Shown one piece after another: positions 2,841 to 41,870 of a stretch of DNA of 64,000 bases. Source of the DNA: Ruminococcus sp. NK3A76 (GTDB lineage: Bacteria; Bacillota; Clostridia; Oscillospirales; Ruminococcaceae); contig NZ_JMMA01000002.1 of NCBI RefSeq assembly GCF_000686125.1, forward strand, positions 1,488,001 to 1,552,000. The letters run 5' to 3'. Every line of letters starts with the position of its first letter. Within the stretch, counting starts at the first letter, position 1. Position numbers and translations under genes: made by a program. The notes below the pieces were generated by a model. It did no database searches. It was not told the origin of the DNA and saw only the letters and a program-made list of their open reading frames with translations.

Positions 2841-2956
2841 GTAATACCTTATCAAGAGCGGCGGAGGGAACAGGCCCGACGATGCCCGGCAACCTAACAA
2901 TTACTGTTAAGGTGCTAAATCCTGCGGAGATCTCCGGAAGATGAGGAATTATTACG
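2841..2956 (+). promoter_or_regulatory. SAM-I (S-box) riboswitch
   Basis: The conserved S-box core is plain: CTTATCAAGAG, then GGAGGGA, GGCCCGA, GATGCCCGGCAACC, and AAGGTGCTAAATCC. The 3' strand GATGAGGAATTATT pairs back with the 5' strand AATACCTTATC to close P1. SAM binding stabilises P1 and lets the downstream terminator form, shutting off metK when SAM is plentiful. Confidence 0.97.
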
Positions 2957-6139: not shown

Positions 6140-6160
6140 GGTTGCATAATGCAGCTGTTG

Positions 6161-6268
6161 CTTCTTCCATCCGGACTATACCGTCGGTTTCGGAATTTCA
6201 CCGAATCAGCGCATAAAATGCGGTAGAGGACTATCACCTCCGGTGTGGAATCTCACCACCCCTTGAAA
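6161..6268 (-). promoter_or_regulatory. FMN riboswitch (RFN element)
   Basis: Read on the - strand, the conserved RFN pieces appear in order: GGGGTGGTGAGATTCC, CCGGAGGTGATAGTCC, GGTGAAATTCCGAAACCGAC, and the closing AGTCCGGATGGAAGAAG. Together with the terminator downstream this represses ribU when FMN is abundant. Confidence 0.96.
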
Positions 6269-6297
6269 CAAATATTGATATTAATTAAAAACGAGAA

Positions 6298-39817: not shown

Positions 39818-39901
39818 GTGGAGTACTGGTTTTTTGCACGAAAAATTAAACTTATGACAGTATTTGGTCTGAAAAATGGGTCAAAATTGTAGGCTTTGCT
39901 A

Positions 39902-39930
39902 TTGAAAAGATAATAAAAATATAGTATAAT
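39902..39930 (+). promoter_or_regulatory. asnB promoter
   Basis: TTGAAA (39902-39907) and TATAAT (39925-39930) are 17 bp apart. Transcription would start near 39937, at the first base of the structured leader. Confidence 0.88.
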
Positions 39931-39936
39931 ACTAAT

Positions 39937-40008
39937 AGGGCATACCGCACAATGTCGTGCGGCTGTAGGGTCTGCTTGGCAGACTCTTACGGAGTTATGC
40001 CTTTTTTT
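39937..40008 (+). promoter_or_regulatory. Structured asnB leader: three-way junction ending in a U-tract
   Basis: The 5' leader folds as a closed three-way junction. P1 is GGCATA with TATGCC (39939-39944/39996-40001). Hairpin A is CCGCAC with GTGCGG (39945-39950/39957-39962). Hairpin B is a 13-bp helix from 39963 to 39992 with loop TTG and one bulged T. Only three unpaired bases (39993-39995) lie at the junction. Seven T follow P1, so the whole element can act as a terminator in front of asnB. It does not match a riboswitch class I know. It could be a regulated attenuator or a 72-nt RNA. Confidence 0.7.
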
Positions 40009-40028
40009 ATTTGAAAGGTGAGGTAATT

Positions 40029-41870
40029 ATGTGCGGATTTGTCGGCTTTACAAATTACATCAATGATAACGGCGACACGCTTGGAAAAATGATGGACAGG
40101 ATAAGACACCGTGGCCCTGACTCTGACGGAAAGTACATTGACGAGAATGTTGCAATGGGCTTTCGCAGGCTTTCTATCATAGACCTGTCAGACAACGGCA
40201 GCCAGCCGCTTTTCAATGAAGACAGAAGTCTTGTACTGACCTTTAACGGTGAGATATACAATTACAGAGAATTAAAAGAGGATCTGCTCAAAGCAGGCCA
40301 CAGCTTTTACACAAAGACTGACTCTGAGGTGCTCATTCACGGCTACGAGGAATGGGGCGAGGAGCTTTTGCAAAGGCTAAGAGGTATGTTTGCTTTTGTT
40401 ATTTACGACAAAGCAAAGCGCAAGCTCTTTGGTGCGAGGGACTTCTTCGGCATCAAGCCTCTCTACTATGCTAAAATGGGCAACACATTTATGTGGGGCA
40501 GCGAGATAAAGGCATTTCTTGACCACCCGGAATTCAAGAAGGAAGTAAACGAAGATGTACTCGAAACATATCTGACTTTCCAGTACTCCCCTACTGAGGA
40601 TACATTCTTCAAGGGCGTTAAAAAGCTGCCTGCTGCGCACTGCTTCACATATGAAAACGGCATACTCGATGTAAAGAGATACTGGGAGATCAAATTTGAC
40701 GCTGACGAAAAGCCCACGCTTGAAGAATGGGTAAACAGGATATCAGACACCTTCAACAATTCAGTAGAGGCTCACAAGATCGCTGATGTTGAGGTTGGTT
40801 CTTTCCTTTCAAGCGGTGTTGATTCGAGCTATGTTGCAGCTGCTGCAAATGTTGACAAGACATTCACTGTAGGCTTCGGCGAGGACGAGAGATATAATGA
40901 GATAGGCTATGCCAAGGAATTTTCAAAATACATCGGCAAAGAAAACACGAGCGAGGTAATAGACCCGAACGAATACTGGGGTAACCTGCCTATGATACAG
41001 TATCACATGGACGAACCGCTCGCAGACCCGGCAGCAATCGCACTGTTCTTTGTATGCAGGCTTGCATCAAAGAGCGTAAAGGTATGTCTTTCGGGCGAGG
41101 GCGCTGACGAGATATTCGGCGGCTACACTATCTACAAAGAGCCGACAGATGTTGCGATTTACAACCACATTCCGAGGCCTATCAGGCGTGGTATCGGTGC
41201 TGTGTGCGAGAAGCTGCCGCAGAAGAGAGGCGTAAATTTCCTGGTAAGGCGCTCACGCAACCTTGATGAGAGGTTTATAGGCAATGCGTATATGTTCTCT
41301 GAAAAAGAGAGAAAGCAGCTTTTAAAGATAAAGACCAATGCTCCCGATGCAATGCAGATAACCAAGCCTTTCTACGACAAGGTAAGAGACAAGGACGCAC
41401 CGACACAGATGCAGTATCTTGATCTGCACCTCTGGATGACCGGTGACATTCTGCTTAAGGCTGACAAGATGAGCATGGCTCACTCGCTGGAGGTCAGAGT
41501 GCCCTTCCTTGACAGAAAGGTAATGGACATGGCAGAGGGAATACCTGTACGCTACAGAGTCAACAACGAGAACACAAAGTATGCGATGAGAATTGCAGCC
41601 CTTAAGGACTGCCCTCCTCAGACTGCAAACAAGCCCAAGCTCGGCTTCCCTGTTCCGATAAGAGTATGGCTCAAGGAAGACAAGTATTACAACATCGTAA
41701 GAGAAAAGTTTGAGAGTGACATATCAAAGCACTACTTTGACACTGATATGCTCATTAAGCTGCTTGACGAGCACAGAGACGGCAAGTTTGACAATTCAAG
41801 AAAGATATGGACAGTGTTCTCATTCCTTATCTGGTATGATGTTTACTTTAACGACAAGTGGGAATTATAA
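40029..41870 (+). CDS. asnB: Asparagine synthetase, glutamine-hydrolysing
   Basis: AsnB makes asparagine from aspartate, ATP and glutamine nitrogen. The 613-residue protein begins MCGFVGF, where the Cys after the initiator is the glutaminase nucleophile. This fixes the start at 40029 with GAGG 5 nt upstream. The N-terminal Ntn domain has RHRGPDSDGKYID and LTFNGEIYNYRELK. The synthetase domain has the PP-loop SFLSSGVDSSYVAAAA near 258 and LSGEGADEIFGGY near 350. It is a single gene on the + strand between genes on the other strand, controlled through the structured leader before it. Confidence 0.97.
   Translation: MCGFVGFTNYINDNGDTLGKMMDRIRHRGPDSDGKYIDENVAMGFRRLSIIDLSDNGSQPLFNEDRSLVLTFNGEIYNYRELKEDLLKAGHSFYTKTDSEVLIHGYEEWGEELLQRLRGMFAFVIYDKAKRKLFGARDFFGIKPLYYAKMGNTFMWGSEIKAFLDHPEFKKEVNEDVLETYLTFQYSPTEDTFFKGVKKLPAAHCFTYENGILDVKRYWEIKFDADEKPTLEEWVNRISDTFNNSVEAHKIADVEVGSFLSSGVDSSYVAAAANVDKTFTVGFGEDERYNEIGYAKEFSKYIGKENTSEVIDPNEYWGNLPMIQYHMDEPLADPAAIALFFVCRLASKSVKVCLSGEGADEIFGGYTIYKEPTDVAIYNHIPRPIRRGIGAVCEKLPQKRGVNFLVRRSRNLDERFIGNAYMFSEKERKQLLKIKTNAPDAMQITKPFYDKVRDKDAPTQMQYLDLHLWMTGDILLKADKMSMAHSLEVRVPFLDRKVMDMAEGIPVRYRVNNENTKYAMRIAALKDCPPQTANKPKLGFPVPIRVWLKEDKYYNIVREKFESDISKHYFDTDMLIKLLDEHRDGKFDNSRKIWTVFSFLIWYDVYFNDKWEL

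Follow-up and report, generated by a model that had tools for sequence, protein, structure and literature searches.

We examined the leader of asnB, the gene for asparagine synthase (glutamine-hydrolysing), in a 64,000-nt stretch of Ruminococcus sp. NK3A76 DNA (the window; genome G000). The asnB product matches TIGR01536 at 514 bits against a cut-off of 267. The leader and gene comprise the following features.

39902-39930, plus strand: promoter with -35 TTGAAA (39902-39907), -10 TATAAT (39925-39930) and a 17-nt spacer; 11 of 12 consensus positions match
39936-39963, plus strand: stretch like the end of a genus-level MITE-like repeat (two one-base gaps; local score 31)
39939-40001, plus strand: three-way-junction element, from sequence and fold
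39939-39944 (GGCATA) with 39996-40001 (TATGCC), plus strand: P1, the closing helix and terminator helix, from sequence and fold
39940-39966, plus strand: extended hexaloop hairpin, a putative antiterminator that adds pairs of 39940-39942 with 39964-39966, uses part of the P1 5' strand and is the minimum free energy (MFE) structure in prefix folding
39945-39962, plus strand: P2, a 6-bp hairpin (CCGCAC 39945-39950, loop AATGTC 39951-39956, GTGCGG 39957-39962) and candidate target of an ANTAR protein
39963-39992, plus strand: P3, a long hairpin (CTGTAGGGTCTGC 39963-39975, loop TTG 39976-39978, GCAGACTCTTACGG 39979-39992) with a single bulged T
39993-39995, plus strand: AGT, the third of the junction linkers, which measure 0, 0 and 3 nt in the sequence
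40002-40008, plus strand: U7 tract of the terminator (T7), present in all four genus members with the element
40014-40023, plus strand: ribosome-binding region, AAAGGTGAGG
40029-41870, plus strand: asnB (open reading frame and TIGR01536), with ATG at 40029-40031

The folded RNA preceding asnB is real. The arrangement described in the initial annotation, from the promoter and its spacer through the three helices and their linkers to the T7 run and an asnB start 20 nt further on, was recovered in both sequence and fold. The element has an MFE of -36.7 kcal/mol compared with a shuffle mean of -21.2 (sd 2.85; z -5.45), and none of 200 dinucleotide shuffles folded as well. A simple terminator scan returned no site at the element because the U-tract adjoins a junction-closing helix rather than a simple hairpin. 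Termination at the element in vivo is predicted from this structure, and the start of asnB transcription is predicted from the promoter.

The -10 region and an upstream block are alike in the asnB promoters of the four genus members. The block, near TTTGCTATTG (window about 39886-39907), lies immediately upstream of the -35 element and reaches into it; G005 has the palindrome CTTTGCTATTGCAAAG. In Bacillus, pyrG is controlled by repeated G addition or a shift of the start site. Comparable control at asnB, with extra or displaced bases at GGGC disturbing P1, would suit the predicted transcript start, which is GGGC in three of the four species. However, the start in G006 is AAGGC, and by eye there is no complementary run to pair with extra G residues; we consider control at the transcription start very improbable.

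The element is confined to a small group of relatives. A DNA search of 100 relatives gave full-length matches, besides G000, only in G006 (92%), G001 (86%) and G005 (76%). The asnB gene was found in four of seven genus members (E <= 1e-80), and all four carry the element in front of it; the three in which asnB was not found (G002, G003 and G004) have genomes that are 58-76% complete. A model of the four elements (R1) was run over 99 asnB loci from the family and beyond, and six carry the element, two of them (L050 and L051) being duplicate records of G001 and G006. The G000 element scores 92.6 bits with R1 by construction, as it is one of the four training sequences. As R1 otherwise finds only weak matches on the minus strand of asnB loci (L108, L104 and L099, all rejected), the three-way junction at asnB is, on this sequence comparison, a genus-level feature. 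Two further R1 matches were set aside: one in G004 (28.1 bits) lies between other genes and is a plain terminator hairpin, and one in G003 (21.3 bits) is a stretch within coding sequence. Conservation at other asnB genes, anticipated in the initial annotation, therefore extends to four species of the genus but not beyond it, the 72-nt structure being absent from asnB outside the genus in the R1 search of the 99 loci. Many other asnB leaders have only about 25-40 nt between the -10 element and the start codon. Six rabbit-gut metagenome-assembled genomes (L069, L078, L081, L082, L092 and L107) have a different terminator-like hairpin, followed by T6, between promoter and asnB, which suggests that terminators at asnB arose more than once.

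In the alignment of the four elements, 94.6% of cells pair. Two pairs of P3 differ on both sides, and none of P1 or P2 does; compensatory changes in all three helices, which the initial annotation proposed to look for, were not seen in these four sequences. The alignment speaks for the fold without proving every helix. The loops of P2 and P3 vary among the species, although loops and junction are partly conserved. In G001 the P2 loop is GAGGGA; this species retains the three-way junction and T7 yet loses the A at loop position 1.

A multi-branched terminator before a biosynthetic gene, whose loops and junction are conserved in part across four species, could be a ligand-binding riboswitch or a tRNA-sensing leader for asparagine, aspartate or glutamine. 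T-box leaders occur at asparagine genes and share with this element terminator control before asnB. However, the window has no Rfam T-box match at gathering score, and at the element none appears even up to E 10; the glutamine riboswitch models (glnA and Downstream-peptide) likewise gave no match up to E 10 there. At gathering score nothing in Rfam matches the element, and a permissive threshold returns only a chance-level CyaR match (E 5.3); its description as an unassigned leader is upheld. Further points against a riboswitch are the variable P2 and P3 loops, a junction core that is not conserved beyond the genus and sister leaders that point to a protein (below). A ligand- or tRNA-sensing leader is thus improbable. 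Elsewhere in the window, Rfam places a SAM riboswitch at 2846-2947 (plus strand) before a metK-like gene and an FMN riboswitch at 6155-6274 (minus strand) before a ribU-like gene, both genes named by eye.

The P2 loop, AAUGUC, is a hexaloop with A at position 1 and G at position 4 (A1/G4) and AC/GU closing pairs. An A1/G4 hexaloop with a stem of at least 3 bp occurs in P2 of G000, G006 and G005, three of the four species, and is missing from G001. In shuffled leaders an equally strong A1/G4 hexaloop stem arises with p = 0.003 for G000 and p = 1 for G001. Among the five A1/G4 hexaloop stems of the window (at least 5 bp, with T6 within 70 nt), only the one at asnB lies outside a long reading frame. 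The G005 asnB leader carries in addition a 9-bp A1/G4 hexaloop hairpin at zero linker; no second one (at least 3 bp) is present in the asnB leaders of G000 or G006, and G001 has none at all.

Other asnB leaders also contain the P2 loop and its closing pairs (ACAATGKCGT). The hairpin model R2 matches seven of the 99 asnB loci at E < 0.001, all of them training rows or a duplicate of one, and most asnB leaders of the family lack such a hairpin. With 374 matches in G000, the broad pattern YACANNGNNGTR was uninformative. A leader peptide, considered by eye for ATGGCGTGC of other asnB leaders, was also dropped: no ribosome-binding site precedes it and the frame is not common to them.

A1/G4 hexaloops with conserved closing pairs are the target of the ANTAR-domain antiterminators EutV, NasR and AmiR, and for EutV the A1 and G4 of the loop and two closing pairs matter (PMC3369931). 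G000 encodes three ANTAR proteins, which match over the Pfam cut-off and were confirmed as full-length proteins. The first lies directly behind gltB-gltD-purF-like-glnA, the second behind gdhA and transhydrogenase genes, and the third elsewhere. Their receiver domains fall below the Pfam cut-off, and in the protein of the gltB operon the residue corresponding to EutV Arg175 is missing, as read through AmiR/EutV alignments. ANTAR proteins are encoded in 30 of 41 relatives and, within the G025-genus set, in 20 of the 21 tested genomes, G027 included.

The G000 leaders of gltB, amtB and gdhA share a plan in which the promoter is followed by an A1/G4 hexaloop hairpin by the predicted start and then by a terminator with a T-run. 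The stems are 10 bp with loop AAAGGC (gltB), 4 bp with AACGAG (amtB) and 3 bp with AATGGC (gdhA), and leader shuffles give p = 0.005, 0.018 and 0.029, respectively. Combined with asnB by Fisher's method the value is 1e-5, for segments chosen after being seen; taken alone, gdhA of G003 and of G004 does not beat shuffles (p = 0.16 and 0.07). For G000 gltB and amtB, pairs of the hairpin share positions with the terminator helix; the full fold places the hairpin bases in the terminator, the hairpin being the early fold. The gdhA form, GGC-AANGGC-GCY with a 3-bp stem, is present in all six genus members with a complete upstream region.

We surveyed 37 upstream regions of gltB, amtB and gdhA from 15 genomes, with some start codons set by eye (for example amtB of G011, G004, G002 and G005, including the second amtB of G005). 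A1/G4 stems of at least 4 bp, not all of them necessarily functional, were listed for 13 of 14 amtB regions, 5 of 11 gltB regions (plus G000) and few gdhA regions. Where a hexaloop stem is followed by T5, the loop is A1/G4 in 23 of 51 cases in gltB, amtB and gdhA regions and in 11 of 103 across the window, figures that serve as description only because the rows are related. No such hairpin was found in the gltB leaders of G002, G005, G008 and G019 or in the glnA leader of G005. The case for an ANTAR regulon at gltB, amtB and gdhA seems stronger than that for ANTAR control of the asnB element. Upstream of gdhA in G002, G005 and G004 (L209, L220 and L228), at a distance of about 270-280 nt, a conserved stretch contains an AATGGC hairpin, followed by a second promoter. 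It has no Rfam match and could be a small RNA or decoy.

The hexaloop, the location of ANTAR genes next to nitrogen genes, and the sister leaders together indicate a known kind of control, ANTAR antitermination. The asnB element resembles the eut (EutV), nasF (NasR) and amiE (AmiR) systems in its A1/G4 hexaloop, its AC/GU closing pairs, its U-tract terminator before a nitrogen gene and the ANTAR proteins of the genome (PMC3369931, PMC8934654). It differs from them as described in that the window has one hexaloop where those leaders have two, and in that the hairpin lies within a three-way-junction terminator, where theirs overlaps a simple one. Loop position 5 is also a pyrimidine at asnB (U in G000 and G006, C in G005), whereas the main hexaloops of gltB, gdhA and amtB in G000 have a purine there. 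The dual-hairpin definition of 2012 places the second hexaloop of eut leaders at a linker of 5-12 nt, and a 3-nt linker failed (PMC3369931); the window leader does not fit this definition, and the second hexaloop of G005 sits at zero linker. By a later redefinition a single hexaloop hairpin is enough for ANTAR binding, with two kept for antitermination (PMC8934654). The asnB leader has one hairpin, as in that single-hexaloop target, and then directly the terminator. The kind of control is thus known, and the asnB leader, with one hexaloop inside a junction terminator, is a variant of it. The view that the leader is a cis-regulatory RNA unlike known systems holds insofar as the element is unassigned and kept before asnB across the genus, but it does not stand alone given its hexaloop, the position of the ANTAR genes and the gltB, gdhA and amtB leaders. 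Nitrogen control, also proposed in the initial annotation, we rate as likely. The word asparagine does not appear in the main text of PMC3369931, and literature searches found no paper joining ANTAR with asparagine synthetase, nothing related to an asnB RNA motif and no paper on nitrogen control in this gut and rumen bacterial family.

Most likely the asnB element is a switchable terminator within an ANTAR nitrogen network and not a new riboswitch class. We put the probability that it is a nitrogen-responsive, ANTAR-controlled terminator at roughly 55%. The gene would be off by default, with an ANTAR-domain protein deciding whether RNA polymerase passes. Transcription would begin at the first bases of the element, and P2 would fold first, its extended form occupying part of the P1 5' strand. 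With nothing holding P2, P3 would form, P1 would close against the U-tract and transcription would stop. A signal-activated ANTAR protein on the hexaloop would instead hold the early hairpin and keep P1 open or delayed, allowing read-through into asnB. We infer the ANTAR binding, the sign of its effect and the signal, which would be nitrogen or glutamine state.

Prefix folding, which is not a kinetic model, is compatible with this order of events. In G000, G006 and G001 the hexaloop hairpin forms first, extended by 3-4 pairs into the P1 5' strand, and P1 closes only once its own 3' strand is made; in G000 the extended hairpin is the MFE structure of the nascent RNA at 30, 36, 48 and 54 nt. Both A1/G4 hexaloop hairpins of G005 are early folds, and the second, when imposed, differs from the final fold by no more than 1.4 kcal/mol. 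The 6-bp core of P2 is compatible with the terminator, and only the weak extension competes with P1. As the terminator fold itself includes the 6-bp hairpin, the opposite sign, with ANTAR binding favouring termination, is possible.

Hexaloop hairpins also occur in other leaders. In 80 genomes of the G025 genus, GYACAATGGCGTRC has 17 matches, ten of them with a stem of at least 6 bp; these ten lie upstream of carA (seven), asnB (two) and a gltA-type operon (one). The stem changes on both sides in four of eight pairs in alignment A3, where the search pattern sets the inner pairs, so only the outer pairs test covariation; L143, equal to another row, and the second hairpin of G005 were left out of A3. 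In 37 genomes R2, several rows of which were drawn from those same G025-genus genomes, identified further carA leaders and the leader of a type III glutamine synthetase (GSIII). The identities of carA, GSIII, amtB and glutamate synthase are backed by Pfam. The resulting 21 hexaloop leaders precede carA (16), asnB (3), the gltA-type operon (1) and GSIII (1), and 17 of them have no T-run of at least five between loop and start codon, which indicates mostly lone hairpins without a terminator. Rfam matched nothing at gathering score in ten loci with hexaloop hairpins. In carA leaders of the G025 genus (for example L189, L190, L197, L202 and L223), a CGACCTC block after the AATGGC hairpin could pair with an AAGGAGG ribosome-binding site; translational control of carA is possible.

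One reading joins these forms in a single ANTAR regulon whose sign depends on RNA geometry. At the nitrogen assimilation genes gltB, amtB and gdhA, whose hairpin overlaps the terminator, binding would give read-through. At glutamine users, where the hairpin is nested in the terminator (asnB) or by itself near the ribosome-binding site (carA), binding would hold expression low and so save glutamine under nitrogen shortage, and a mobile repeat would be the origin of the nested form. A lone AATGGC hairpin is also found near the start codon of gltB in G111, G130 and G174, against a clean split by geometry, and we regard this scheme as unlikely.

A TA-flanked MITE-like repeat of the genus has an end similar to the first 28-30 nt of the element; the best match is a 39-nt derivative in G000 whose first 30 nt are almost identical to the element. 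Among the loci analysed, 19 copies of the repeat have both ends and 16 are full size. The repeat is about 172 bp long, with ends GGCAAYACCGCAC and GTGCGGYRTTGCC, and is often TA-flanked; short deletion derivatives measure 30-50 nt. Copies in G000 lie at L237:11751, L238 (1736 and 5596), L246:1272, L233 and L234, and others are in loci of G003, G004 and G005. Some are near nitrogen genes, including one between amtB and gltB of G000.

The element could accordingly be a plain intrinsic terminator or attenuator, left by a short copy of this repeat between promoter and asnB, giving low fixed read-through or a short RNA with no regulator and with its hexaloop by chance. Local alignments of the four asnB elements with the repeat score 31, 31, 29 and 27, values reached by 0, 0, 1 and 4 of 200 shuffles, the four being related and not independent. 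The loss of A1 in G001, where junction and T7 stay, also fits a terminator without a regulator. However, a profile of the full-length repeat misses the asnB elements (best 0.7 bits, in G005 and at a different place), the fold and T7 are conserved in four species with the same plan recurring at gltB, gdhA and amtB, and asparagine synthase leaders of the G025 genus have the hexaloop where the repeat was not seen. Because the 5' half of the element resembles the repeat end, the A1/G4 hexaloop may be a relic inherited from the repeat. Such counter-evidence keeps our estimate for the ANTAR-controlled terminator only slightly above even; a plain repeat-derived terminator we consider less likely, though a serious alternative.

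If the ANTAR-controlled terminator is the right reading, asparagine synthesis would join an ANTAR nitrogen regulon in this gut and rumen bacterial family. The asnB leader would then be a test case for whether a single nested hexaloop suffices for ANTAR control, a question left by the 2022 structure paper, and for the turning of a repeat into a regulated terminator.
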